Source: an uncultured Clostridia bacterium (GTDB lineage: Bacteria > Bacillota > Clostridia > Christensenellales > Borkfalkiaceae). Taken from it: DNA of 53,325 bases. Under the pieces are notes generated by a model. That model searched no databases, had not been told where the DNA came from, and was given only the letters and a program-made list of their open reading frames with translations. The stretch is taken from NCBI GenBank assembly GCA_947625245.1, contig CANQNO010000003.1:65915-119239 (forward strand), written 5' to 3'. A program made the position numbers and the translations under genes. Positions 40,225 to 53,325 of the stretch are shown one piece after another. Within the stretch, counting starts at the first letter, position 1, and the number at the start of each line of letters is the position of its first letter.

Positions 40225-40392
40225 GCCTAATAATTTATTTGGGGAAATTTTTCTTCCCGATATTGCGGATACTACTATGGCATAGTTGTATCCTTATTTC
40301 TCTGTATCCATAAATCGGGAAGAGATAAATTATTAGGCAAACGACAAGGATACGCCGTGCGGGCATCCTTTGTCGGATGCCCTTATTTTTTT
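40225..40392 (+). ncRNA. Riboswitch-like structured leader or small RNA
   Basis: A nested fold: a perfect 14-bp outer stem GCCTAATAATTTAT (40225-40238) with 40325-40338; a 9-bp stem CTTCCCGAT (40253-40261) with ATCGGGAAG (40314-40322); and an inner hairpin GGATAC-T-ACTAT-GGC-ATAGT-T-GTATCC (40267-40293). GGATAC recurs at 40348-40353 and GTATCC at 40304-40309, so partner exchange is possible. CGACAAGGAT (40342-40351) can pair with ATCCTTTGTCG (40365-40375), excluding the terminator at 40361-40382. This is the logic of a riboswitch or attenuator. I recognise no known class core. A self-standing small RNA is also possible. Confidence 0.55.
40361..40392 (+). terminator. Terminator ending the structured leader
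   Basis: GGGCATCC (40361-40368) and GGATGCCC (40375-40382) form an 8-bp GC-rich stem with a 6-nt loop, then TTATTTTTTT. It is 33 nt upstream of the zinc-ribbon gene and competes with the alternative hairpin 40342-40375. Confidence 0.8.
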
Positions 40393-40425
40393 ATCCCGAT
40401 TTTTTTGTGTAGAGGAGGTTTATTT

Positions 40426-42423
40426 ATGCACAAATGTTTAAAATGCGGAACCGAATTTGACGGCAAATTTTGCCCGAATTGCGGTTCGGAATGGGAGGAG
40501 AACAAAATCTGTCCCAAATGCGGAGCCAATCTTCCCGGTGAGGCGCGGTTTTGTACACAATGCGGTTATTCCTTTGCGGGGAAGGCGGCGGAGAACGCAA
40601 TAAAACCGCAATCGGTTATGCCGCAAAAGGTGTTTTCGGCGTTGCGGTTCCTTCCTTTTGCGGCTTTGGCGCTGTTTTCCGTTTTGCTGTTTGCCTTTTT
40701 TGCGGCGCCCGTTGCAGAAATGGTTATGGGCGCGGGCTTTCCGAATGTAAGTTTAGGCAACGTCTATTCGATGCAATCGGGAATTTTAAGCGAATTGCCC
40801 CAACTTAACGGCTCGCTCGTTTCGTTGATTTTCTTTACGGTAATTGCGTTTTTATATGCCTGCGCGTTCGGCGCGGTTCATTTTGTCCGCGGATATGAAT
40901 TTAAAAGAATTAAAATAGCAAAGTTTGAAATATCTCTCGCTTCGCTTTTGGACTATGTTTCGTTTATATTTTATTTGATTGTATTTATAATAGGCGTTAC
41001 CGTAATGGGTATGATATCCTCCGCGGACGAGGGAATGGGCTTGCTGGTTTCGGGAGCCTGCCCAATACTTTTGATGGTATTTTCAATTGTATTCGCTCTG
41101 CTTGCGGCGGGTTCGCTTGTCGCACGGTTCTTGCTTGCAAAAAAATACCCCGAACTTGCTCGTGAAGAAAAAATGCGTAAAGAAAGGTACATTCAAGCCG
41201 AAACAGAGCGAAAAGCGCAGTACTATGCCACGCATACCGCGCCCGTTCCGCCCATAATGACAGGTCAACCTAAAAAAGAATATAATAGGTCGGCTGTAAT
41301 TTATAGGCACGATAAGCGCAGATACGACAAGGCAAAGGAAGGCAAGACGCCTGCGGCGGTAATTTGGATAGATTTACATATGGCTGCGGTGTTGTCGGTT
41401 GTCGCAATTTTATTGGTTGCAATTATATTAATAAGTGTTCTCGTTCCCATATTTACAAATAAATTCCGCATATCGGTGGTAGAAAAAATTAACCTCGGCG
41501 ATAACCGCGAACAGGTTATTAAAATTTTAGGCGAACCGAACGAAACTTTGTACAATGACACATGCTGGCAATATTACAGCGACGAATATACCTCCATACA
41601 AGAAAAAATAACAAAAAGTATTGAAAAACAAGAGCAGGCAATCGAAAAAGGCGACGAAAAAATGTTGCTACGGCTTGCCGACGAAGAATTAAAGCTCGAA
41701 GAACAACTACAAACTGTTAAATATGATTTTATTGAAATAGAATTTACTGTTAAAAATGAGAACGAATTATCGGTTTCAAGCGTATTTTTTGAAAAAAACA
41801 GATGTGACAGCGCCACCGAATCTACTAAATCAGTAATGCAATTAAAATTATCAGATAAGGTTGGCTATTATTTGGACAAAACGGGCGTTCAAACACAGGT
41901 AAAAATTATAGATTATGATGAAATTAAAGCAGATTCGATTTTTTATACTGCATATTTCACTGACGGTTCACTTTACCGAACTTATTTTTCAGATAAAGCA
42001 GTTCAACTAAATAACGAAAAATATATAAGTTGGTCTGACAGATATTCGAATTACAGTTCATCGATAAATCAAATGGTTGAAGTAGGTGAAATCAATAAAG
42101 CTGGTGAATGGTATTCTCAATATAAAAATTTTAAATCAATATTTATACCAGAAAATGTAACTTCTATCGGACGGTGGTCTTTTAATGGTTGCGAAAGCCT
42201 TGAAAGTATTACGGTTTCTGATGGCAATACGGCATTTGCAAGCCAGGACGGAATTTTATATAACAAAGATAAAACCGAATTTGTACATATACCGCGAGCT
42301 ATAAAAGGTTCAGTAACTATACCCGAAAGCGTAACTTCTATCAGTGATAGTGCGTTCAATAGGATTAGGGATACAGTAAAAAATCAAAAAAATCTATTAA
42401 AACGGTCATTAAGCAGAGCATGA
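40426..42423 (+). CDS. Zinc-ribbon membrane protein with BamE-like and leucine-rich-repeat parts
   Basis: 665 residues from an ATG with AGAGGAGG at 40411-40418; the longer upstream frame reads through the terminator and is rejected. Two CxxC zinc-ribbon pairs come first (CLKCGTEFDGKFCPNCG; CPKCGANLPGEARFCTQCG). Four or so transmembrane helices lie between about residues 75 and 255, with one more near 340-365. INLGDNREQVIKILGEPNETLY resembles a BamE/SmpA-type repeat. The end has BspA-like leucine-rich repeats (SIFIPENVTSIGRWSFNGCESLESI; SVTIPESVTSISDSAFN) that stop abruptly, followed by a basic tail, so the C-terminus may be truncated. The function is unknown; sensing at the cell surface is a guess. 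Confidence 0.85.
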   Translation: MHKCLKCGTEFDGKFCPNCGSEWEENKICPKCGANLPGEARFCTQCGYSFAGKAAENAIKPQSVMPQKVFSALRFLPFAALALFSVLLFAFFAAPVAEMVMGAGFPNVSLGNVYSMQSGILSELPQLNGSLVSLIFFTVIAFLYACAFGAVHFVRGYEFKRIKIAKFEISLASLLDYVSFIFYLIVFIIGVTVMGMISSADEGMGLLVSGACPILLMVFSIVFALLAAGSLVARFLLAKKYPELAREEKMRKERYIQAETERKAQYYATHTAPVPPIMTGQPKKEYNRSAVIYRHDKRRYDKAKEGKTPAAVIWIDLHMAAVLSVVAILLVAIILISVLVPIFTNKFRISVVEKINLGDNREQVIKILGEPNETLYNDTCWQYYSDEYTSIQEKITKSIEKQEQAIEKGDEKMLLRLADEELKLEEQLQTVKYDFIEIEFTVKNENELSVSSVFFEKNRCDSATESTKSVMQLKLSDKVGYYLDKTGVQTQVKIIDYDEIKADSIFYTAYFTDGSLYRTYFSDKAVQLNNEKYISWSDRYSNYSSSINQMVEVGEINKAGEWYSQYKNFKSIFIPENVTSIGRWSFNGCESLESITVSDGNTAFASQDGILYNKDKTEFVHIPRAIKGSVTIPESVTSISDSAFNRIRDTVKNQKNLLKRSLSRA

Positions 42424-42541: not shown

Positions 42542-42570
42542 GTAATCATTCTCATAAGGGGCGTGTGGAC

Positions 42571-43899
42571 ATGGAAAACGCTTATACCGAGTACAAAAGA
42601 GAATTGACGGACGGCTTGGAAAAGGAAGTCGTTGCCTTTTTGAATACACTCGGCGGGGATATTTTAATCGGCGTAGAGGACAACGGCGAAGTCGTGGGGA
42701 TTGATGCCCCCGACGATATTAGCCTGAAAGTTGCGGACCGTTTGAAAAACAATATCAGCCCGTCCGTCATCGGGCTTTTCCAAATCGATATTTTGGGTGA
42801 GCAGAAGAAATACATCAAAATCTCCGTTGCAGGCGGCTTGGAGAAACCCTATTATATCAAAAAATACGGCATGAGCCCCAAAGGTTGTTTTGTGCGCATC
42901 GGAACGCAGAGTACGCCGATGGAACAAGCGCAGATCGAAACCTTATTTTCGCACAGAGTCAACCGTACTTTGAGTACAATCATATCCCCTCGGCAAGATC
43001 TGACGTTTACTCAACTTCGGATTTTTTACGAAGAAAACGGCTTTGATACGAGCGGAGATCATTTCTTTCGCAACTTGGGGATGTACACCTCGGATGGTAG
43101 ATTTAATTATTTCGCCATGCTCCTGTCTGACCAAAACGATGTTACTATGAAAGTGGCGCGGTTTAAGGGTACGGACAAGAATGAAATCATTACAAGCAAA
43201 GAATTCGGCTATTGCTGTATTCTGAAAAGCGTCTACAACATCCTTGCCTACCTGGACAATTATAACTTGCCGTCCGTGGAAATTACCTATCCCAAGCGGG
43301 TGGAAAAGTTTTTGGTCGATAAAGTTGCCCTGCGTGAAGCCGTTATCAATGCCATCGTTCACAACGATTATATCAGCGGCGGTGCGCCTCTCTTTGAGAT
43401 ATACGATGACCGTATCACAGTTGTTTCTTACGGTGGGCTTGTGGGCGGATTGACGCAGGAGGAATTTTTCAGCGGACGGTCCATGCCGAGAAACAGAGAG
43501 CTGATGCGGGTATTCCGCGATATGGAGTTTGTAGAAAACTTCGGCTCGGGGATCCAACGCATTTTGCGTGTCTATGACCGAAGCATCTTCCAAATTTCCG
43601 ACAACTTTATCATTACCGAGTTCAAATACGATCCCGAAGTCTTAAAGAAAGTGCGGAACGCGGTCGTTCACGGTGAGCCTGTAAATGTTCCTGTAAATGA
43701 GCCTGTAAAATTGACCGCCACGGCGCAAAAAGTATTGGTGCTCATTGCCGAGCAGAGCAATATTACCCTTGAAATTTTGACCGAAAGGATCGGCGTTTCA
43801 AGAGAAACCGTTAAGCGCGCGATCAAACAGTTAAAACAAAACGGCTACATTGAGCGCGTTGGTCCGGATAAAACGGGTTATTGGAAGATATTGGAATAA
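42571..43899 (+). CDS. AlbA_2 (Schlafen-type) domain transcriptional regulator
   Basis: A 442-residue COG2865-type protein. The N-terminal AlbA_2 domain contains TEYKRELTDGLEKEVVAFLNTLGGDILIGVEDNGEVVGID. A GHKL-like module has LREAVINAIVHNDYISGGAPLFEIYDDRITVVSYGGL and NFGSGIQRIL. A C-terminal winged helix follows a VNVPVNEPVK linker (ILTERIGVSRETVKRAIKQLKQNGYIERVG). Such proteins are numerous in accessory regions and are presumed regulators; the signal is unknown. The ATG at 42571 follows AAGGGG; a GTG at 42565 is also in frame. It stands at the upstream edge of the AT-rich operon and is not clearly cotranscribed with it. Confidence 0.88.
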   Translation: MENAYTEYKRELTDGLEKEVVAFLNTLGGDILIGVEDNGEVVGIDAPDDISLKVADRLKNNISPSVIGLFQIDILGEQKKYIKISVAGGLEKPYYIKKYGMSPKGCFVRIGTQSTPMEQAQIETLFSHRVNRTLSTIISPRQDLTFTQLRIFYEENGFDTSGDHFFRNLGMYTSDGRFNYFAMLLSDQNDVTMKVARFKGTDKNEIITSKEFGYCCILKSVYNILAYLDNYNLPSVEITYPKRVEKFLVDKVALREAVINAIVHNDYISGGAPLFEIYDDRITVVSYGGLVGGLTQEEFFSGRSMPRNRELMRVFRDMEFVENFGSGIQRILRVYDRSIFQISDNFIITEFKYDPEVLKKVRNAVVHGEPVNVPVNEPVKLTATAQKVLVLIAEQSNITLEILTERIGVSRETVKRAIKQLKQNGYIERVGPDKTGYWKILE

Positions 43900-43952: not shown

Positions 43953-43981
43953 TTGTAATCGCTGCAGTTCTGTGCTATAAT
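43953..43981 (+). promoter_or_regulatory. Promoter of the 44-52 kb accessory operon
   Basis: TTGTAA (43953-43958), a 17-nt spacer and TATAAT (43976-43981) with extended -10 TGC. No terminator was found between here and 52.1 kb, so this may drive all eight genes. Confidence 0.75.
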
Positions 43982-44042
43982 TATTCTTGTAAATAGGAAA
44001 AGTAATCACTAGTTTTAGGTATAAAGTTACTTGAGGATAAAA

Positions 44043-44891
44043 ATGACATTTTCATCGTTAGGAAAACAACGCAGATTAAATAAATTATTCACTAATGGGA
44101 AAACATTAGTTGTTCCCGTGGACGATAGTTTGATATTTGGGCCCAAAGAAGGATTGTTTGATTTAGATAGCACTTTGTACGAAATTCTTTCCGCTCAACC
44201 CAATGCCATATTGGGTTACAAACGAGATTTGGAGTTTGTAAATCAGCATCGTATCAATACAGCGTTTATATATAACTTAACCGCTAGTACAGTACTTAGT
44301 GCCCATACCCAAAAAACTGTTATTGCGAGTGTAGAAAACGCATTGTCTGCTGGTGCGGAGTGCGTTGCAGCGCATATCAATTTTAGTAGCCGGTATGAGA
44401 ATGAAATGTTACACAATTTTGCTTTGATTGCAAACGAATGTGATAAATTGGGGATGCCATTATTAGCAATAGCTTATCCTCGCAAGGAGAATGCCGATGG
44501 CACCGATTATAATTATGAAGATTTGAAAGGCCAAGACCATATGGCTTTTGCTGAACTTGTTTCGCATTGTACAAGAGTAGCCTGTGAGCTTGGGGCAGAT
44601 ATAATTAAAACTTACTATACAGGAGATATCGAATCATTTAAGAATGTTACGAAATCTGCCTGTGGTAAGCCGGTCATAATCGCTGGTGGACCGAAAGTGC
44701 CCGTAGAAAAATCATTAGAGAGTGCATATAACGCAATTCTTGCAGGGGCTGCTGGAACGAGTTTCGGTAGGAATGTTTTTAATGCGGATCACATTATGGA
44801 ATATATAACTGCATTAAAGAACATTATCTTTGGCGGAGCAACATTGGATCATGCTTTAGAAGCGTATAAAATTGCCGTTGGGGAAAATTAA
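44043..44891 (+). CDS. DhnA/LsrF-type class I aldolase
   Basis: A 282-residue TIM-barrel aldolase of the archaeal FBA / ADTH-synthase (AroA') / LsrF family. The Schiff-base lysine is Lys189 in GADIIKTYYTGD, the acid-base Tyr is in AIAYPRKE (145), and the phosphate site is IIAGGPKVP and GTSFGRNVF. Relatives join dihydroxyacetone-phosphate-like donors to aldehydes, in shikimate-like or secondary pathways (for example GriI). The substrate here is unknown. The ATG has GAGG six bases upstream; a TTG at 44031 is also in frame. It is the first gene of the AT-rich operon. The adjoining SDRs suggest its product is reduced or oxidised next. Confidence 0.85.
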   Translation: MTFSSLGKQRRLNKLFTNGKTLVVPVDDSLIFGPKEGLFDLDSTLYEILSAQPNAILGYKRDLEFVNQHRINTAFIYNLTASTVLSAHTQKTVIASVENALSAGAECVAAHINFSSRYENEMLHNFALIANECDKLGMPLLAIAYPRKENADGTDYNYEDLKGQDHMAFAELVSHCTRVACELGADIIKTYYTGDIESFKNVTKSACGKPVIIAGGPKVPVEKSLESAYNAILAGAAGTSFGRNVFNADHIMEYITALKNIIFGGATLDHALEAYKIAVGEN

Positions 44892-45638
44892 ATGGGAAAG
44901 TTGGAGAAAAAAATCGCTCTTGTAACAGGATCTTCTGTCGGTATAGGCAGTGCTATTGCAGAGTCTTTTGCTGCTGAGGGGGCGGAGGTTATAATTGTAT
45001 CTCACCGGACGGTATTAGAAGGACAAGCAGTTGCGCAAGGGATTAATAATAATGGCGGGAAAGCTTTATATGTTTGCGCAGATTTATCCTCGCAAAAAGG
45101 TGTGGAGGCGCTGTTTAATGAAATCATAAAACATTACTCAACAATTGATATTCTTGTTAATAATGTAGGACATTCGTTTAGTACACCATTAGACGAGCTT
45201 TCCGAAGAAACACTTATGCGCGATTTAAAGAGTAATTTTATATCAACCGTTCTTTGCTCTAAGAAGGTACTGAGTTACATGCCAGAAGGAGGTCACATAA
45301 TTAATACATCTTCGATACGAGGAATTGATTATGCTGGCAGAGTACCACTTATAGGATATTGTGCTGGGAAGGCTGCGGTTAATAGTTTTACAAAAAATTT
45401 TGCATTACATTGCGCTCCTAAAATTTTTGTAAATGCTGTCGCGCCTGGATTTGTATGGACGGAGGCGTTAAGTAAAACAGATCAGACCTTGCTCAGTAGA
45501 TGGCTTAAAGATGTGCCCATTAAACGTTTTATAAAACCATCGGAACTGGCAGAACTATATATTTTATTAGCAACAACACAAATACTTACAGGCGTAATTT
45601 TATCTGCAGATGGCGGATATACAATTTTGGAGAAATAA
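44892..45638 (+). CDS. Short-chain dehydrogenase/reductase (first of two)
   Basis: A classical SDR of 248 residues. The cofactor motif is TGSSVGIG (14-21), with VNNVG later. The catalytic Ser is in NTSSIRG and the Tyr-x3-Lys is YCAGK. It ends GVILSADGGYTI, the FabG-type C-terminus. It would use NAD(P)H on a carbonyl or alcohol, probably on the product of the preceding aldolase. Its ATG follows the aldolase stop directly. Codon use is AT-rich, unlike the core genes upstream. Confidence 0.9.
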   Translation: MGKLEKKIALVTGSSVGIGSAIAESFAAEGAEVIIVSHRTVLEGQAVAQGINNNGGKALYVCADLSSQKGVEALFNEIIKHYSTIDILVNNVGHSFSTPLDELSEETLMRDLKSNFISTVLCSKKVLSYMPEGGHIINTSSIRGIDYAGRVPLIGYCAGKAAVNSFTKNFALHCAPKIFVNAVAPGFVWTEALSKTDQTLLSRWLKDVPIKRFIKPSELAELYILLATTQILTGVILSADGGYTILEK

Positions 45639-45642
45639 AAAT

Positions 45643-46464
45643 ATGGTGAATCGGCAATCAGTATGGGCGGATATGCAGAAGTGGGAATTCGTTCTTCCTC
45701 CTTCTAGGCCTACGGTAGCGGAGTTAAGTCGAATTACAGAAGTTTTAGGGGACATAGATAGAAAGGCTCCTATTGCAGTTCTTGGAAGTACTCCAGAGTT
45801 CCGAGAAATGCTTTATCGTTTAGGTTTTATAAATATTTATGTCTTTGATAAAGATGATAATTTTTATAGGCTTACTACAAATTTGATACCATATAGAGTT
45901 AACGAGCATTTTATACATGGGGATTGGCTCAGTTCATTGTCTGATTTCAATCATTTTTTTAGAATTATATTGTCGGATCTGACAATGGGTAACATATCAT
46001 ATAAGGACAGGAAGCTATTTTATGATAATATAGGTAAGGCACTTTGCGGCAGTGGATTGTTTATAGATAAGGCACTAATAATAGATTTTCCGTTGCTTAA
46101 ATTAGAGGATTTATATGAAAAATATAATCGGCTACCAATTAATTTACGGACTATAAATAATTTCTCGTGTGAATTTTTATTCTGTAGCGAATTGCTCTCA
46201 ATCAATGAAATAGTAGATAGTAGCCGCTTTTATGATTTTATTTATGAAAATTGTGGCTCAGAAAAAATTCGATTTTTTTGCGAAAAGTCTCAACTTATGA
46301 TAACACCAAGAAATTTTTATTGGTATTATGGAAAGAGTTGGGATGAATTAAAGGAAAATTATTTTGCGCCATTCTCAAAAGAATATGAAGTATTTATAGA
46401 TGCTGATGAAAAGAGCCCATATTATAAAAAAGCAAAACAATTTTTTTTGAAAAAAGGGAGGTGA
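45643..46464 (+). CDS. SAM-methyltransferase-like protein
   Basis: A 273-residue protein with a class I Rossmann pattern: APIAVLGSTPEFREMLYRLGF (motif I loop at about 44-52), the acidic residues in YVFDKDDNFYRL at the second strand, then HGDWLSSL and FRIILSDLTMGNISYKDR, matching motifs III-IV. Methyltransferase is therefore likely, but the substrate cannot be read. The C-terminal 100 residues are unfamiliar. The ATG at 45643 is chosen; an upstream in-frame ATG at 45610 lies inside the SDR. It is sandwiched between two SDR genes. Confidence 0.65.
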   Translation: MVNRQSVWADMQKWEFVLPPSRPTVAELSRITEVLGDIDRKAPIAVLGSTPEFREMLYRLGFINIYVFDKDDNFYRLTTNLIPYRVNEHFIHGDWLSSLSDFNHFFRIILSDLTMGNISYKDRKLFYDNIGKALCGSGLFIDKALIIDFPLLKLEDLYEKYNRLPINLRTINNFSCEFLFCSELLSINEIVDSSRFYDFIYENCGSEKIRFFCEKSQLMITPRNFYWYYGKSWDELKENYFAPFSKEYEVFIDADEKSPYYKKAKQFFLKKGR

Positions 46465-46466
46465 CT

Positions 46467-47210
46467 ATGATTATTATTACTGGTGCAGGAAGCGGCATGG
46501 GTGAGGCTACGACGGAACTTCTTGCCCAAAAAGGATATGATGTAGCCTTAATTGGTAGGTCAAAGCAAAAATTATCCAAACTTAAACAACGACTTGACAA
46601 CTCCATAACGGCCATTGAACAGGAGTTGGATGTATCAAATGCCGCTGAAACTTATTCAGTATTTGAAGAGTTGTTTAAAAATTTTTCTATTGAAGGGCTG
46701 ATTCATTGTGCTGGTATCATTTCCTGTCGAGAAGAGAAGTTTTTATCGGATGTTAATAACGAAGAAAGCTTGAGAATAATTTCAACGAATATTATTGGTA
46801 CATTGAATGTAAACAGGGCGTTTATAAGAAACGCTCTTAACAATTCGCTGAAATGCAGTATTGTAAATATAGCGTCAATCAGTGCAACCTTTGATTCTGC
46901 CGACTTTCCCTCATATAGTTTATCTAAAGGGGCAATTATTTCATTGACAAAGTCTTTGGCAATGCGTTACGGTGAGAAAGGAATAAGGGTAAACTGTGTT
47001 TCTCCTGGCGTAGTAAAAACACCCATGTCATATATAGAGACCCCTGATTTTGATGATTATATAGATGAACTGAATCAATATCACCCGTTAGGGCGTATCG
47101 GCGCACCTATTGATGTGGCAAAATTGCTTTGTTTTTTAGTATCAAAAGATTCCGAATGGATTACAGGGCAAAATTTTGTAATAGACGGCGGATATACTTT
47201 AAGCAAGTAA
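46467..47210 (+). CDS. Short-chain dehydrogenase/reductase (second of two)
   Basis: A 247-residue classical SDR: cofactor loop TGAGSGMG, then HCAGI, catalytic Ser in NIASIS, YSLSK and the FVIDGGYTLS end. It is clearly different from the first SDR, so the pair suggests two separate redox steps rather than a recent duplication. The start ATG has GGGAGG five bases upstream; the GTG at 46461 overlaps that site. The NACHT gene follows after 7 nt. Confidence 0.9.
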   Translation: MIIITGAGSGMGEATTELLAQKGYDVALIGRSKQKLSKLKQRLDNSITAIEQELDVSNAAETYSVFEELFKNFSIEGLIHCAGIISCREEKFLSDVNNEESLRIISTNIIGTLNVNRAFIRNALNNSLKCSIVNIASISATFDSADFPSYSLSKGAIISLTKSLAMRYGEKGIRVNCVSPGVVKTPMSYIETPDFDDYIDELNQYHPLGRIGAPIDVAKLLCFLVSKDSEWITGQNFVIDGGYTLSK

Positions 47211-47217
47211 GGGATTT

Positions 47218-49650
47218 ATGGGATACAACGAATCAGATTTTAATCTTTTTGGTAGCACAGACCATAACGAATATTATAGCCTCTTGAAAAGCGATATAAA
47301 ATTCGAGTCGATAAATCAATTGACAGATGGCGATAGCGCTTTCATGTCTTTGTATGTTCGTATTGATGTTTTAGGCACGGCAAAGCAAGAATTAAGGGGA
47401 TATGGCAGAAGTTACTATGATTCCAAAAATGGACGAGAAGAGCTTTTGGAGAAAATATTCAAAAGCGAAGCGGATGGGAGAAAGGCAATATTGCTATATG
47501 GTGATGTCGGCGCGGGTAAATCAACGGCGTTGAATTATATTTTGTCTCAGTATATCAATATGGCAAAAAGATTGGTTTTAAAAATCAATTTAAAAGATTG
47601 CGTGTTTAACAGCGCTTCATTTGATAATATAGATGCCGTTTTACAGATATTTAAAAATGATATCATGAGGAGATGGTTGGCGCAGAGACATTCTGAAATT
47701 GAAGTCACTAAATTGAATGCGATTTTACAGGCAATAAGGAAAGATTTAAGCGGTGCAATAGTTCTTGTGGATGGGTTTGATGAATTAGCCTATGAATATC
47801 GTGAGGGCTTTTTTGCTTGGTACAAAAAATTAGTTCAATTTGCCAACAATGAGATTACTATGGTTTTAACATCCAGAACTTACGAAACGGAAAAAATTGC
47901 AGAGAATATAACGGAGATTGAATTTGTACGATTGGCTGATTTTAGCGAGGAACAAATTCTTTCCTTTCTCAATAAGCAATTCCAAAGTAAATATCCGTCT
48001 TTGAGGCAAGATGATATAGAACAAAAAAGTCAAAACCTGTTCAACCTAGTACAGAGGAATGAAAAAATACGGGATTTATCGCTTAATCCCTTGATGCTAC
48101 TTTTAATTTGTACGGCATATGTGGAAAACGGTGAACAACTTGTAGCTAAAAATAAGGTTCAGCTTTATCGGTTTGTAATAGAGTTTTTAATAAATAAAAG
48201 AAAAACTTCGGATAAAATTGACATAGATAATCAAAAAATAGTTAACTTCCTTGAAAAATTTTCGTTTTTCTTGGTACAGCAACCCGATCCAGATTCGGAT
48301 TTTAGTTTAAGCCAATTCAGTCTTTCATTACTATATGAATTTAGAGATTATCCCAAATTATGGGAGCTAACGCAGTTTTTATATAAAAGCTGTGGGCTAA
48401 TTCGCATTACCCAAGAAGAACAAAATCATGGGACGTGGAAAGATCCAAATTTGACTTTCATTCATAAATCATTTAGAGAATATTTAGCGGCCTGTTATAT
48501 CATTAAACATCAAGAAGAAGTTGATATAATGTCGATTTTTAATAATGACAAACATAAAATCTATGTAGTATTTAATTTTTATTTGGGCTTATTATCGGAG
48601 GGCTGTAATAGTGATTTATTAATATCAGGAATGGTAAGTGTAAGTTCGGATGAGTCCTGCATTGTATTGGGACAAGCCATATATGAATATTCCATACGGA
48701 TTTTGTCCCAAACGAGAGAAGTGCTATTTAATAGATTAAAAAATATTATCTCCAATAAAGGACTATCAATCGACATTAAAATAGAGGCTTGTGATGTGTG
48801 CGCGAGGCTGGAAATGTATAGCGGATTGCCCATGCAAAGCGTAACGAACTACATTTCCTGTTGCGGGTGCAAAATTCCAGATATTGAGTGGGTGAAAGTG
48901 CCAGTACAAGGCGGGCAAGATTTCTATATAAGTAAATATCCTATTACGAACAGCCAATTCCGGCTATTTGTTGAGGCTGACGGGTACAATCGGTCCGACT
49001 TTTGGAGCGAAAACGGAGCAAGACAATGGAACTCAGGGGATGGGTTAAATTTTCTTACAGATATCGGGTATACTGAAGAACGTCTGGAGCTATATACTTC
49101 ATGGTTGAAATCAAGGGTCGGCGAGAGAAAGAAAAAACCCTTTTGGTTTAACATTGAACCCTGGGGGAATTCGCTTCATCCGGTAGTCGGAATTACTTGG
49201 TATGAAGCAGTAGCATTTACAAAATGGATGGACACATTCAGCAATGATGGATATGAAATTGGCTTGCCCACCTTAAACGAATGGGAATTAGCGGCTAATT
49301 TAAATGGAAACTATTCAAATTGGAGTTGGATTGGAGAATGGCAAGATAATTTTTGCAACACGAATGAAAGTAAAATACGTAAAACTTCACCCGTCGGTAT
49401 TTACTGTATTAAAACTGCCCTTGGTATAGAAGATTTAACGGGCAATGTATACGAATGGGTAAATGACGGCTATACCGATGCGGTGTGCCATGACGGCCTT
49501 GACAAAGAAGCGTTGGGCTTAAAACTTGTGAAGGGAGGAGCTTGGAATTTCAGTAAAAACGAGGCCGAAAATTCAGACAATAATTGGGATTATCCATTTA
49601 TTTTTGATCAAAATACAGGATTTAGAATTGTGATGAGGAAAAAGAAATGA
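47218..49650 (+). CDS. NACHT-type STAND NTPase with C-terminal FGE-sulfatase fold
   Basis: An 810-residue signal-transduction NTPase. Walker A is GDVGAGKST (95-103), Walker B AIVLVDGFDELA (180-191), and a sensor Arg lies in MVLTSRT (215-221), as in NACHT proteins. A helical middle follows. Residues of about 560-810 are an FGE-sulfatase / C-type-lectin-like fold (WVKVPVQGGQDFYISKYPITNSQF, GITWYEAVAFTKWM, LPTLNEWELAANLNG, DLTGNVYEWVND, GFRIVM). The Cys-x-x-x-Arg signature of true formylglycine-generating enzymes is absent (KGGAWNFSKNEAENSD), so this end probably binds a ligand. Bacterial NACHT proteins often act in phage defence. Here it sits within a metabolic-looking operon. Confidence 0.87.
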   Translation: MGYNESDFNLFGSTDHNEYYSLLKSDIKFESINQLTDGDSAFMSLYVRIDVLGTAKQELRGYGRSYYDSKNGREELLEKIFKSEADGRKAILLYGDVGAGKSTALNYILSQYINMAKRLVLKINLKDCVFNSASFDNIDAVLQIFKNDIMRRWLAQRHSEIEVTKLNAILQAIRKDLSGAIVLVDGFDELAYEYREGFFAWYKKLVQFANNEITMVLTSRTYETEKIAENITEIEFVRLADFSEEQILSFLNKQFQSKYPSLRQDDIEQKSQNLFNLVQRNEKIRDLSLNPLMLLLICTAYVENGEQLVAKNKVQLYRFVIEFLINKRKTSDKIDIDNQKIVNFLEKFSFFLVQQPDPDSDFSLSQFSLSLLYEFRDYPKLWELTQFLYKSCGLIRITQEEQNHGTWKDPNLTFIHKSFREYLAACYIIKHQEEVDIMSIFNNDKHKIYVVFNFYLGLLSEGCNSDLLISGMVSVSSDESCIVLGQAIYEYSIRILSQTREVLFNRLKNIISNKGLSIDIKIEACDVCARLEMYSGLPMQSVTNYISCCGCKIPDIEWVKVPVQGGQDFYISKYPITNSQFRLFVEADGYNRSDFWSENGARQWNSGDGLNFLTDIGYTEERLELYTSWLKSRVGERKKKPFWFNIEPWGNSLHPVVGITWYEAVAFTKWMDTFSNDGYEIGLPTLNEWELAANLNGNYSNWSWIGEWQDNFCNTNESKIRKTSPVGIYCIKTALGIEDLTGNVYEWVNDGYTDAVCHDGLDKEALGLKLVKGGAWNFSKNEAENSDNNWDYPFIFDQNTGFRIVMRKKK

Positions 49651-50288
49651 GCGATAAAAACTACAGAAAAATAATAATAATTATTTCCATATTGCTTTCA
49701 ATCGTATTACTAGGTAGTGTTTTTTTTAACATTACACTTAATCTCGTTAATTTGACGGCCACAACTGATTGGGTGGGATTTTGGGGTAATGTCATAGGTA
49801 CTATTGCTGGTATGCTCGGCTCTTTCCTTATATTAATAATAACCCTTACAGCAAACGATAAGCAGAATGAAAAGCAGAACAAATTGTCGGCGCAATTATC
49901 GGTTAAGCTTGAGGATATAAAACATATAGAAGCGGCTTTGGAAGAAAATCTCAAATTCTTTGCTGGAAATGTAATTTTCGATCTATTTGTAAATGAACCC
50001 GATATAGGGAATTGCATTAAAAAGTCCATAATCCATGTTGAAATAAATAAGAGGAATTTTGAGATCTTGAAATTTCATTACTTCAACGATGCGCATTTTG
50101 CTGATGGTATTTTCGAAGCGCACAATAAACTTATGATTTTGCTAAACGATATTATGGTTCAGCGATTTGACCAAAGAAGGGCTTTTGAAATATTGAAGGA
50201 TGAATTATTTGAACTATACAAAAAAGTAAGTGACTGTTCCTACAAGATTATAGATAAGATAAGGGAAGGTTTGAGCAGAGATGTCTAG
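49647..50288 (+). CDS. Two-helix membrane protein of unknown function
   Basis: 213 residues. The first transmembrane helix is at about 8-31 and the second (DWVGFWGNVIGTIAGMLGSFLILIIT) at about 41-67. A helical, charged cytoplasmic part follows, probably partly coiled coil (NDKQNEKQNKLSAQLSVKLEDIKHIEAALEEN). The DWxGFWG-x-G pattern recurs in small membrane proteins of phage and accessory regions; no function is assigned. The ATG overlaps the NACHT stop as ATGA, so the two are probably translated together and may interact. Confidence 0.75.
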   Translation: MSDKNYRKIIIIISILLSIVLLGSVFFNITLNLVNLTATTDWVGFWGNVIGTIAGMLGSFLILIITLTANDKQNEKQNKLSAQLSVKLEDIKHIEAALEENLKFFAGNVIFDLFVNEPDIGNCIKKSIIHVEINKRNFEILKFHYFNDAHFADGIFEAHNKLMILLNDIMVQRFDQRRAFEILKDELFELYKKVSDCSYKIIDKIREGLSRDV

Positions 50289-51222
50289 TGTTCTTAAAAA
50301 AAGTGAATGCGGGTTTGTCGATACTGATTCCGTATACAAAATCTATTATGAATGCTATGGAAATCCTTCTGGGTATCCCATTTTTATCTTTCATGGCGGA
50401 CCTGGATATGGAATGGATCTCGATGTTCTGAGTGCTTTTAGCGAAGATTGGAAAATTATCTTTGTTGACCAACGCGGATGTGGAAAATCAATTCCCATAG
50501 GTGAAACAAAGGATAATAACACATCTAAATTAATTGAAGATGTTGATCGAGTGGCAAAATTTCTTGGAATAGAGCAGTTCTCTATAAAAGGACATTCATG
50601 GGGCAGCTTATTGGCACTATTATATGCACAAAAATCCCCGCAACGGGTAAGATCGTTAATTTTGACGGGTGTTTTCCTGGGGGACGACAGAGGCACATTA
50701 ATTGGCAAACAGGGTGGTTTTCAAATGTTCTATCCAGAATTGTTTGATAAACTGCAAGAAACTCTGTCGAGTAAGAATGATAATTTCTATGAAATCTGTG
50801 CTGATAAGGTTTTGAACGGTTCATTTAAAGAAAGAAGAAGCATTTCACGAGCATTAGTTTTTTTGGAGTGTTTTCTTGAGAACAATGGAAAAGATATTGA
50901 GGCAATTAATGAATATTGTCAGTCAGTTGATTGTGAAAGCATAGCAAAAATAGAAACATATTATACAATCAATAATTTTTTTATTAATGAAGATGAAGTC
51001 TTAAACAATCTTAAACTGATAAGGGACATTCCCATTTCGATTTTGCATGGGCGCAGAGATTTGATTGTTCCTATACAATCAGCATGGAAACTGCATAAAA
51101 TGTTACCCAATAGTCAATTAACAATTGCTGAAACGGGTGGGCATTGCGAGACTGAAGGTGAAATGCTTGAAAAGTTAAAAAAACTCATTGAAAGTCACAA
51201 GAAGTATTGGAGGTGCAATTAA
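50281..51222 (+). CDS. Alpha/beta hydrolase, proline-iminopeptidase-like (S33)
   Basis: A 313-residue hydrolase. The oxyanion motif FHGGPGYG and FVDQRGCGKS are typical of the S33 prolyl aminopeptidase group. The nucleophile elbow is GHSWG with Ser106, the acid lies in HGRRDLIVP, and the His is in TGGHCETEG. It could cleave an N-terminal amino acid, an amide or an ester from the product of this operon. Strict Pro-specificity cannot be read from sequence. It overlaps the membrane-protein gene by 8 nt. Confidence 0.88.
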   Translation: MSSVLKKSECGFVDTDSVYKIYYECYGNPSGYPIFIFHGGPGYGMDLDVLSAFSEDWKIIFVDQRGCGKSIPIGETKDNNTSKLIEDVDRVAKFLGIEQFSIKGHSWGSLLALLYAQKSPQRVRSLILTGVFLGDDRGTLIGKQGGFQMFYPELFDKLQETLSSKNDNFYEICADKVLNGSFKERRSISRALVFLECFLENNGKDIEAINEYCQSVDCESIAKIETYYTINNFFINEDEVLNNLKLIRDIPISILHGRRDLIVPIQSAWKLHKMLPNSQLTIAETGGHCETEGEMLEKLKKLIESHKKYWRCN

Positions 51223-51224
51223 TT

Positions 51225-52115
51225 ATGCTGTGCGAATTGATTTCGTTTCATAATGATTCGGGCCTTAAATTAGACGGATTACTTTTTAGATCTTTAGAAA
51301 AACCCATTGCCACAGTAATACATATTCATGGGAGTTTCGGTAATTTTTATAATAATGATTTTATAAAATCAATGGCAAATATATATTGCGCCAATAACAT
51401 AAATTTTGTTACTTTTAATTTAACTGCGCATGATGGTATCGCTGAATCCGTTAGAGAAATTAACGGTGTAAAAAGTTGGGAGTATGTCGGCTACAGTATT
51501 TCAGAATTCCAGTCTTGCATTGATGATATCAATGGGGCAATTAGATTTGCAAACAAATTTGGTGTACCGATAATTTTGCAAGGACATAGTTTAGGCTGTG
51601 ATAGAATTATTTATTATTTTTTAAAAAGCGGAAGAAGTTACGATTCGATTTTGCTGAGTCCAAGCGATCAAAAAAATATTCAGGAAGAATGGATATATCC
51701 CGAAACGATATCGGAACAAATAGCCAGATTAAAATTCAATCAAGATACTAATTTTTTATTGCCTTTTTCAGAATATGGCGTTAAGACCACTCATTCGGTT
51801 ATTAATGATGCCATTGATAATTGTCCGTTTATTCCAATCAGCAAGAAGGCTTTATTATCGCTTTTGGAAAGTGAATGTTTTACATTTTGGTCTTCTTTGC
51901 GTGAATGCAATTTTTATTATCCGATTAATGTATTTATATATATTGGTGGAAAAGATGAGTACAATTCAAAAGGTAAAGAATTGGTAACTGGGTTCAATAG
52001 AAATGTAAGGTCGTTAACGCTACATTATATAGAAGAGGGAAACCACCATTTTCAAGGTTTTGAAACGCCTTTATATATAGAAATTATAAGCTGGATACAT
52101 AAAGTTGTTTCATGA
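51225..52115 (+). CDS. Alpha/beta hydrolase (second, different subfamily)
   Basis: A 296-residue hydrolase unlike the previous one. It has VIHIHGSFGNFYNN as oxyanion region, the nucleophile elbow GHSLG (Ser122), YIGGKDEYNS for the acid, and EGNHHFQGFE for the His. It resembles DUF1749-type esterases. The ATG at 51225 with GGAGG at 51209-51213 is preferred over an in-frame TTG at 51207. It is the last AT-rich gene; its stop forms ATGA with the next frame, where base composition changes abruptly. Confidence 0.85.
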   Translation: MLCELISFHNDSGLKLDGLLFRSLEKPIATVIHIHGSFGNFYNNDFIKSMANIYCANNINFVTFNLTAHDGIAESVREINGVKSWEYVGYSISEFQSCIDDINGAIRFANKFGVPIILQGHSLGCDRIIYYFLKSGRSYDSILLSPSDQKNIQEEWIYPETISEQIARLKFNQDTNFLLPFSEYGVKTTHSVINDAIDNCPFIPISKKALLSLLESECFTFWSSLRECNFYYPINVFIYIGGKDEYNSKGKELVTGFNRNVRSLTLHYIEEGNHHFQGFETPLYIEIISWIHKVVS

Positions 52116-53325
52116 GAATAATTAATTTGCAAAATATTCCCATGCGCAGAGGGTATCGGATATTGTCGGTCGAGGCGGCGGACATATATAAGAACGAACA
52201 GGAGAACGGCGCGGTCGTCGGGTATAAATTGCCCGAAAAGGGCGACGCGCGTTTTCGGCTGTTCAAGATACTCTTGGACGATTCTCTTGATTCCAAAGAG
52301 CTTGAAAGGGCATATACGCGCATTTGCCGCAGGAAGTTCGCTTTTCAAGACGAGTACGAAAACGCCTACACCCTCGCCGTCGTCAACGTCAAATTTAATT
52401 ATATCTACAAGCCCGAGGACGGAAAACCCGTCAAGATAAAAGAATTGCGGGAGCATTTCTATGAAAACGGCTTCTGCGTGGACGGCGTTCGGTATGTGAG
52501 ATACAAGCGGAGCGCGGGCAGCTCCCGCGAGGGCAAGTGTCTTTTTATAGACGAGCGGCTCTCCCGCGCTATGTCCAAATGGAGCGAGTGCGGCTTGAAA
52601 CCCAAAGCAGACCTCGCGTCGTGGGAATCGTATAAAGCACTCTCTTTGAGCAGTATCAAGGGAACGATAGAAATACCGCTCAACGGCATCCTCTTTGTGC
52701 CGGACTATCAAAGCACATTTACGGAAGAAGTCGTATCCGTCGAGATCGAGGGCGGAAAGCTCGCCGCGCACACAAAAGAAACGCAAATCACAAACGATAT
52801 ATGGGACGGAGAAAGCTTGTTGGACGAGAGCCTGTTTGCGGGGGAATACGCGGACAGACACATGATGCTTCTCCGAAATAAGTTTTTCAAGTCGTGCGCG
52901 TTCAAAACCAAACTCCAAAAATGGATCAAGGATAAGAATATCACGCTCGCGGAACTGAAAGCGCGAGGCTTTGTCACGCTTGCGGACGACGTAACGAAGA
53001 TCGTCATGGCGACAACGCCGAACAGTTTGAAATATCTCAAATTCGCAGGCGGGCTGTCCGAGAAGAATATCAAAAAATGGACGGAGAACGCGGACGGCGC
53101 GTTTGGCGTGGTGAAATGGGATAAACCCACCCGCTTCTTCCACGGGGGAATGGTACAGAGCAGTTATCAGCTTCTGAACACTCTCGGACTTTCCGAGGAA
53201 CAGACCGCCCGACTTTTACAGCCAAGTATAGATTATATTTCCCTTTTGCGCGGCGACATAGACTTTATGCGCTACCACTTCACGGACGCATTTGCGCGGG
53301 AGAAAGACGGCGAAACGGAACGGCA
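52112..53325 (+). CDS. RNA-dependent-RNA-polymerase-like protein, N-terminal part (runs off the window)
   Basis: An open frame from the ATG at 52112 (or 52142) to the window end, with more than 400 residues visible. Its order of motifs resembles bacterial homologues of eukaryotic-type RdRPs: VRYVRYKRSAGSSREGKC with LFIDERL, then NDIWDGESLLDESLF, MMLLRNKFFKSCAF, and later HGGMVQSSYQLLNTLG and LQPSIDYISLLRGDIDF. The catalytic DxDGD of the double-psi beta-barrel would lie beyond the edge and is unseen. Codons are GC-richer than in the operon before it. Such genes are often carried by mobile elements of Clostridia. Family assignment is from recall and is moderate; the coding call is firm. Confidence 0.6.
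   Translation, partial: MRIINLQNIPMRRGYRILSVEAADIYKNEQENGAVVGYKLPEKGDARFRLFKILLDDSLDSKELERAYTRICRRKFAFQDEYENAYTLAVVNVKFNYIYKPEDGKPVKIKELREHFYENGFCVDGVRYVRYKRSAGSSREGKCLFIDERLSRAMSKWSECGLKPKADLASWESYKALSLSSIKGTIEIPLNGILFVPDYQSTFTEEVVSVEIEGGKLAAHTKETQITNDIWDGESLLDESLFAGEYADRHMMLLRNKFFKSCAFKTKLQKWIKDKNITLAELKARGFVTLADDVTKIVMATTPNSLKYLKFAGGLSEKNIKKWTENADGAFGVVKWDKPTRFFHGGMVQSSYQLLNTLGLSEEQTARLLQPSIDYISLLRGDIDFMRYHFTDAFAREKDGETER

Follow-up and report, generated by a model that had tools for sequence, protein, structure and literature searches.

The window analyzed here is a stretch of 53,325 nucleotides from an uncultured Clostridia bacterium of the Borkfalkiaceae (contig CANQNO010000003.1, hereafter C3, of assembly GCA_947625245.1). 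Near its right end lies a cluster of eight plus-strand genes, denoted g1 to g8, that encode an aldolase, two short-chain dehydrogenases/reductases (SDR), a methyltransferase-like protein, a NACHT-FGE protein, a membrane protein and two alpha/beta hydrolases. Comparison with other genomes indicates that the aldolase, the methyltransferase-like protein and the last hydrolase are kept together across five phyla, and that these enzymes form a real conserved unit, hereafter the cassette, rather than a chance assembly. The genes and adjoining features are:

42565 to 43899, plus strand: g0, AlbA_2/Schlafen-type protein with a winged helix, 131 bp upstream of the cluster; possible regulator, with a homolog 3.9 kb upstream of the aldolase of L006, one of the related loci described below
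43953 to 43981, plus strand: sigma-70-type promoter-like site, TTGTAA-17-TATAAT, extended -10; no enrichment of such sites relative to shuffled sequence
44043 to 44891, plus strand: g1, DhnA-type class I (Schiff-base) aldolase of 282 aa, related to MJ0400 and LsrF
44892 to 45638, plus strand: g2, SDR with 70% identity to the SDR beside the L014 aldolase
45643 to 46464, plus strand: g3, predicted class I S-adenosylmethionine (SAM) methyltransferase fold, from a family that Pfam does not model; used as the marker of the cassette
46461 to 47210, plus strand: g4, second SDR
47218 to 49650, plus strand: g5, NACHT-FGE protein of 810 aa
49647 to 50288, plus strand: g6, membrane protein with hydrophobic helices at aa 9-27 and 49-67 and a 146-aa tail
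50281 to 51222, plus strand: g7, alpha/beta hydrolase resembling prolyl aminopeptidase, under the NCBIfam cut-off
51207 to 52115, plus strand: g8, alpha/beta hydrolase of the family kept with the cassette; start at TTG 51207 or ATG 51225
52112 to 53325, plus strand: right neighbor, starting at 52112 or 52142 and cut off by the window end; 853 aa in the same-genus genome G014

The open reading frame (ORF) scan places the eight genes between 44031 and 52115 (44043 to 52115 with the preferred starts). They touch or overlap, as the initial annotation had it, at distances of -8 to +7 bases when g3 and g8 are started at 45646 and 51219; a g3 start at 45643 leaves a gap of 4 bases after g2, and g8 either overlaps g7 by 16 bases (listed TTG 51207) or lies 2 bases from it (ATG 51225). 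The gene families named in that annotation were borne out by the ORF, Pfam and NCBIfam scans and by the fold prediction for g3. The single good promoter that it proposed stands in part: the site at 43953-43981 (10 of 12 positions matching) lies inside the sole sizeable gap of the region, 131 bp in length; the count of such sites, 39, is within the spread of shuffled sequences (34.9, standard deviation 5.0), and eight sites on the minus strand score equally. Terminator-like sites number 12 compared with 8.4 (standard deviation 3.1) in shuffles; the eight on the plus strand all fall within ORFs and none is located at a junction between g1 and g8, in agreement with the absence of an internal terminator noted originally. 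The eight genes are predicted to form a single transcript, which may run past 52115 because the right-hand ORF touches or almost touches g8. The right edge of the window is the end of contig C3 (the genome comprises 26 contigs and is 94% complete), so that the right side is visible for 1.2 kb only.

A search with g3 returned 334 proteins, the window's own included, and a profile built from 31 of these was scanned across one genome per species (84,980 species), where 52 stretches fit a pattern and 10 encode a relative. No locus was dropped before counting, and gene maps were drawn for all ten. The hosts are two Lachnospiraceae, three other Bacillota, one member each of Planctomycetota, Nitrospirota and Pseudomonadota, and two Bacteroidota, altogether five phyla. 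An aldolase gene is present in nine of the ten independently found loci, adjoining g3 in seven of them; in L008 one gene intervenes, and the L014 aldolase is 5 kb upstream. A g8-type hydrolase is present in nine as well. Both are missing from L009, a 3.3-kb contig on which g3 starts 119 bases from one end, with 2.3 kb visible downstream. Other enzymes recur as well: by blastp clustering, an SDR is found in six loci, SnoaL-like and PNPOx-like proteins in four each and a GNAT protein in three. In L010, the SnoaL-like and GNAT proteins exceed their Pfam cut-offs, whereas those of L006 fall short, the GNAT protein narrowly; the PNPOx-like protein has a Pfam match in L011, where it is encoded on the other strand. 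The chance assembly that the initial annotation had entertained is therefore not borne out, since the core of aldolase, g3 and last hydrolase recurs in this form across five phyla.

Because several rows have long branches, the phylogenetic trees were used in a limited way only. The loci L012 (Pseudomonadota) and L015 (Bacillota) pair in the trees of the aldolase, g3 and g8 (supports 99/97, 83/83 and 98/97, respectively), which fits a unit travelling together; L006 and L007 pair as well, although both of their hosts are Lachnospiraceae. The Bacteroidales locus L014 gives a mixed picture: its aldolase pairs with the window's g1 (96/95), to which it is 62% identical, and its SDR shares 70% identity with g2, whereas its g8 groups (100/100) with those of L006, L007 and L010, and its g3 is placed outside a group (95/93) formed by the window, L009, L006 and L007.

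For g1, the ATG at 44043 was preferred over the listed TTG at 44031 on account of an upstream GAGG and agreement with the L014 homolog. The protein matches the DeoC/LacD aldolase family of Pfam (126.9 bits) and aligns with MJ0400 (E = 3e-45) such that D31, Y149 and K193 (numbered from TTG 44031) match D33, Y153, which we take to be catalytic, and K184. These three positions are invariant in all ten cassette aldolases, the window's included. For Asp33 and Lys184 of MJ0400, catalytic roles are given in PMC4162585. In each of the ten cassette aldolases, the residue following the catalytic Asp is another Asp, compared with His in MJ0400 and LsrF, a substitution that, by alignment, is a subfamily mark of the cassette enzymes. 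The g1 protein scores below every curated NCBIfam cut-off, including the equivalog TIGR01949 (213.4 bits, cut-off 299.45), the subfamily NF005556 (228.1 bits, cut-off 241) and BagB/FevI (128.8 bits, cut-off 500). Both g2 and g4 belong to the SDR family by Pfam and NCBIfam.

The start of g3 at 45643, preferred over that of the ORF list, agrees with the homolog P0001. The Pfam and NCBIfam scans gave no significant family for this protein; its structure model (predicted local distance difference test score 94.4) matches 1147 PDB chains at E <= 0.001, and the 50 best listed are mostly methyltransferases, with moderate template modeling scores of 0.38-0.60 to the query and with 3iv6, titled putative alcohol dehydrogenase, at the top. 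A class I Rossmann-like SAM-methyltransferase fold is accordingly predicted from the model for g3, in which motif I reads LGSTPE; in SAM methyltransferases, this motif is usually GxGxG. The hydrolase g7 is an Abhydrolase_1 protein near prolyl aminopeptidase (TIGR01249, 229.4 bits, under the cut-off of 259.75) with no relative detected by blastp among the ORFs of the ten other loci. The hydrolase-like g8 exceeds no Pfam or NCBIfam cut-off and distantly resembles dienelactone hydrolase (E = 5e-4); Ser124, Asp246 and His276 (numbering of alignment A3) are invariant in all 10 aligned rows. Judging from these alignments, the catalytic residues of the aldolase and of the g8 hydrolase are intact.

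In eight of the ten loci, the cassette includes another membrane protein, which combines hydrophobic helices with a phospholipase-D-like (PLD-like) fold, predicted by modeling and devoid of the HKD motif, and every locus on a contig longer than 4.1 kb has a membrane protein. The PLD-like domain is predicted by structure modeling to resemble, among others, the TrmB sugar-binding domain. Between the methyltransferase gene and g8, the window has instead the SDR g4, g5, g6, which lacks a PLD-like domain, and g7, so that g5 and g6 occupy the slot held by the membrane-PLD protein in most other loci. The only parallel among the ten loci is L014, in which the aldolase and SDR most similar to g1 and g2 are immediately followed by an FGE protein (E = 2e-10; hhalign probability 96.2 across the FGE part), without a recognizable NACHT domain, and then by a two-helix protein. 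A PADLOC scan of ten cassette proteins of the relatives, the L014 FGE and two-helix proteins included, gave no match at 0.1. A blastp search (1e-4) detected no relative of g5 among the ORFs of the ten loci, and one locus of ten has an FGE protein; the pairing of NACHT-FGE protein and aldolase, for which the initial annotation suggested a search, was accordingly rejected as the conserved feature. Judged by that annotation's own test, namely whether homologs co-occur beyond this strain, the enzyme core holds, the NACHT gene being a local substitution. As far as gene content tells, what is constant is the enzyme pathway, the serine hydrolase and a membrane protein, and what varies is the sensing part. 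A membrane-PLD search in four genomes of the genus, run without a positive control, was empty. The possibility that g6 is a shortened membrane-PLD protein was considered and found unsupported (hhalign probability 2%).

The g5 protein matches Pfam NACHT (27.5 bits, cut-off 26.7) and FGE (120.5 bits, cut-off 23.3), and its first 56 residues match no Pfam family. Walker A (GDVGAGKS, aa 95-102) and Walker B (IVLVDGFDE, aa 181-189) are both intact. The FGE domain spans aa 567-805, with GGAW at 773 and GFR at 803, and no Cys is present between these two motifs, the stretch near the C terminus in which, we assume, the catalytic Cys pair of true FGE enzymes falls. Because Cys is missing from this position, the FGE part is probably a non-catalytic, lectin-like binding domain. 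No known Avs or bNACHT model matches g5, for which PADLOC gives only mad8 (0.0072) and NCBIfam gives EruA (24.7 bits), far below its cut-off of 1000. Diversification of the FGE domain by a diversity-generating retroelement was rejected: the genome has no RVT_1 match and no template-like repeat, the matches elsewhere in the genome to the 3' end of the FGE region (49300-49650) being at most 24 bases long. Hydropathy gives two helices for g6, which exceeds no family cut-off and is weakly similar to SLATT_4 (NF033632, 19.9 bits, cut-off 55) and to PADLOC "2TM".

The genes g1 to g8 have GC contents of 0.32-0.39 (0.26-0.36 at third codon positions, GC3), compared with 0.44-0.50 (GC3 0.48-0.59) in seven of the eight left-hand genes measured, which substantiates the remark that the cluster is more AT-rich than core genes and looks acquired; g0 (0.461, GC3 0.564) and the right neighbor (0.505, GC3 0.646) are not AT-rich. 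The eighth left-hand gene, 40357-42423, which directly follows methionine gamma-lyase and encodes a zinc-ribbon protein with BspA-type leucine-rich repeats, is AT-richer (GC 0.397, GC3 0.374), and the AT-rich stretch may start as far left as this gene. Full-length g3 occurs in the window's own genome only, among 61 genomes of the genus and 391 members of the class; partial class-wide matches in 11 other genomes (62-127 of 266 profile positions, E from 2e-5 to 7e-4) were not counted. Eight loci have flanks that allow a comparison, and in six of these the GC content of the cassette is 0.03-0.14 under that of the flanks; it is equal in L014 and higher in L007. Given the rarity of full-length g3 and the mostly lower GC content of the cassette, the distribution appears sporadic and the cassette is probably mobile.

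The right neighbor has long matches in three other genomes among the 61 of the genus, the window's own included: G014 (92% DNA identity), G030 (75%) and G465 (74%); fragments of at most 46 bases in three further genomes were not counted. In G014, the homolog comes after genes for a bSEFIR protein, a REase_III-type protein, a DrmD-like helicase and a TmtA-like protein; in G465, its neighbors are SduA, a DrmD-like helicase and type III restriction-modification, with a serine-recombinase-like ORF recognized by eye on the other side. The complete 853-aa protein (L046:10794-13355) has no Pfam, PADLOC or meaningful PDB match; its NGCDYDSDTM sequence recalls, in our estimation, the DxDxD motif of two-barrel RNA polymerases. 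Among the relatives, four of ten flank proteins, chosen for a defense-like look, match PADLOC at a threshold of 1e-5. One is a full-length DSR2 (defense-associated sirtuin 2; 1293.7 bits) at L014:11165-14851, which is convergent with the cassette and separated from it by 54 bases; another is the mad8-like ATPase of L013, and the remaining two, in L006 and L011, match candidate systems (PDC). In addition, Pfam names a TIR-TPR protein in L013, which also has an integrase, and a NACHT-LRR protein 0.4 kb past the L007 cassette. Support for a role in defense is thus contextual, good for some loci and open for others; with DSR2 beside L014 and homologs of the right neighbor in same-genus defense islands (two scanned, one by eye), a defense island is the likely setting of the window's cassette. 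An attempt to define the empty site through megL of the left flank failed: in G014, G030 and G465, different genes come after megL, which lies away from the right neighbor.

That the genes represent a conserved metabolite cassette with a membrane partner we consider highly probable. A more specific reading, in which the enzymes build a small methylated metabolite that serves as an intracellular signal for g5 and g6 in an anti-phage cassette, is favored tentatively, with slightly more doubt than confidence. The aldolase would couple a phosphosugar-type donor with an aldehyde by Schiff-base chemistry, the SDRs would reduce or oxidize the product, and the methyltransferase would then methylate it; at other loci, the SnoaL-, GNAT- or PNPOx-like enzymes might tailor it. 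The product presumably remains inside the cell, given that no transporter was recognized in the cassettes of the window and the ten loci. In the common form of the cassette, the product would bind the PLD-like domain and switch the membrane protein, resulting in membrane damage or depolarization. In the window, where this slot is filled by a NACHT-FGE protein and a membrane protein without a PLD-like domain, the FGE domain would sense the product and ATP-driven NACHT assembly would switch g6. The serine hydrolase g8 could either finish the signal or destroy it, thereby resetting the system. The trimming or detoxifying role that the initial annotation suggested for the hydrolases, like the sensing or responding role suggested for g5, stays conjectural. 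The extension of this scheme to a five-phylum family of immune cassettes, with an aldolase-built, methylated non-nucleotide messenger and exchangeable membrane receptors, mostly PLD-like and here NACHT-FGE with a bare two-helix pore, is conceivable and on balance doubtful.

Several observations weigh against a signal-driven immune cassette. No NACHT protein occurs in any of the ten other cassettes, and an FGE protein is found in L014 only, which has a membrane-PLD protein too. By the hhalign comparison given above, g6 is not significantly related to the membrane-PLD family, and hydropathy gives two helices in five of the eight membrane-PLD proteins, one in L006 and L007 and three in L014. PADLOC returned no model for g1 to g4 and g8 at 0.01 and only weak matches for g5 to g7 (mad8 0.0072, 2TM 0.0044 and C3a206 6e-6); six of the ten flank proteins chosen by look, the TIR-TPR and NACHT-LRR proteins included, have no match at 1e-5; inspection by eye revealed no clear defense gene next to L008, L010, L012 and L015; L007 borders genes that look by eye like those for surface-sugar or sugar biosynthesis; and the flank in G030 resembles the other two by eye only. 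Nor were copies of g3 found in plasmids, phages or viral contigs, and the g8 and membrane-PLD profiles had no match in viral contigs. Against plasmids, g8 gave one partial match (61% of the query, 30.7% identity) with neighbors that differ from the cassette; the aldolase gave one match in viral contigs (L061, 33% identity) and, in plasmids, 275 records of which none reaches 60% identity; the two that were examined are not this cassette. Phage- or plasmid-borne copies of the cassette are thus not supported by these searches.

Three other explanations have to be weighed. The cassette might make a specialized metabolite, that is, a secreted antimicrobial, siderophore-like or signaling compound, the membrane protein providing immunity or sensing. 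DhnA-type aldolases open known natural-product pathways, and both the similarity of g1 to BagB/FevI (128.8 bits against 500) and the existence of a Klebsiella michiganensis plasmid with an annotated cluster of aldolase, dehydroquinate (DHQ) synthase II and major facilitator superfamily (MFS) transporter speak for this possibility; however, neither the window's cassette nor the ten others contain a recognizable exporter, carrier protein or assembly-line enzyme, DHQ synthase II is absent by Pfam among the eight genes, and several loci sit among defense genes, so that we regard this explanation as unlikely. The plasmid cluster itself (L063:7647-13580) encodes an aldolase annotated as ADH synthase, DHQ synthase II, an epimerase, an MFS transporter and an adenylating enzyme, is not this cassette, and to our eye resembles a GriHI-type aminohydroxybenzoate pathway.

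It is also conceivable that two independent systems share one transcript, namely a metabolic cassette (g1-g4 and g8) and an inserted, unrelated NACHT-FGE/2TM defense pair. That neither g5 nor g7 has relatives among the ORFs of the ten other loci is compatible with such an insertion, as is the finding that 19 of 40 g5 homologs in the protein database combine NACHT and FGE (their gene context is not given), so that the architecture exists in its own right. Nevertheless, the recurrence of FGE and two-helix proteins in L014, despite its Bacteroidales host, after an aldolase with 62% identity to g1 and an SDR with 70% identity to g2, the position of g5 and g6 in the slot of the membrane-PLD protein, and the agreement of their GC and GC3 with those of g1-g4 and g7-g8 make two systems distinctly improbable. 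Finally, an island for modification of cell-surface sugars or lipids, in which an unusual envelope sugar is made and the membrane protein anchors the pathway, would account for the sugar-biosynthesis-looking genes (by eye) that precede L007 and would accord with the action of ADH-synthase-type aldolases on phosphosugars described in PMC4162585. Given that no glycosyltransferase, nucleotidyltransferase or flippase was recognized in the cassettes and that only one of ten flanks, judged by eye, is of sugar character, this scenario is very unlikely.

In the proposed reading of an intracellular metabolite signal, the cassette would parallel CBASS, Pycsar and Thoeris, systems that consist of a signal synthase and an effector, in that the operon would supply a small molecule to switch an effector that is interchangeable and in many cases bound to the membrane. 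It differs from them in that Pfam, PADLOC and NCBIfam detect no CD-NTase, cyclase or TIR signal maker in g1-g8 or g0, and the signal of the window would derive from a multi-enzyme carbon pathway. The NACHT domain of g5, with Walker A and B, is shared with Avs and bacterial NACHT proteins. The C-terminal FGE domain likens g5 to the STAND proteins ending in CLec or FGE domains that PMC10907252 describes as putative antigen sensors; unlike these, g5 bears no sign of retroelement diversification and sits within a biosynthetic cassette. The aldolase g1 belongs to the same family as MJ0400 ADH synthase, LsrF and the GriI, FevI and BagB enzymes and has the same three catalytic positions, but differs in scoring under every curated cut-off, in having Asp in place of His and in lacking an adjacent DHQ synthase II. 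The weak matches of g6, and of a 212-aa protein at a second locus (L049, below), to SLATT_4 and PADLOC "2TM" recall the SLATT/2TM effectors of SMODS and SLOG systems, with the difference that the SLATT_4 matches are far under the curated cut-offs (19.9 against 55; 18.9 against 27).

No description of this gene set was found among the open-license PubMed Central papers listed, and no PADLOC model matches it. To our knowledge, signal-based bacterial immune systems all use nucleotide-derived messengers. If the proposal is correct, a multi-enzyme carbon pathway with an exchangeable receptor would represent new chemistry for immune signaling and would provide a candidate small-molecule ligand for one of the STAND-FGE proteins, which have been proposed to sense antigens. 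Even without a role in defense, a five-phylum biosynthetic core with an apparently non-catalytic PLD-like membrane protein would be an undescribed pathway with a testable product, and the gene set, markers and catalytic residues are concrete enough for direct testing.

Further arrangements were observed. Proteins of 836 and 837 aa in G051 (L003:907-3417) and G028 (L004:329-2842) contain a g3-type methyltransferase-like domain in the middle; their N-terminal parts look TIR-like by eye only, with no Pfam TIR match, and were not used as evidence for TIR, and the part after the methyltransferase-like domain reads by eye as helical. In G051, the 836-aa fusion is immediately preceded by a homolog of g0 (42565-43899) at L050:30-1376, and another such homolog lies upstream of the L006 cassette. 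Elsewhere in the window's own genome, a distant relative of g3 belongs to a second cassette (L049:8679-11831, contig C11), in which touching genes encode the 212-aa membrane-type protein, a 364-aa protein without family, the methyltransferase-like protein and a serine hydrolase, with an aldehyde dehydrogenase, a radical-SAM-like protein and another methyltransferase in the vicinity; by eye, the C-terminal part of the 836/837-aa proteins resembles the 364-aa protein of this cassette.

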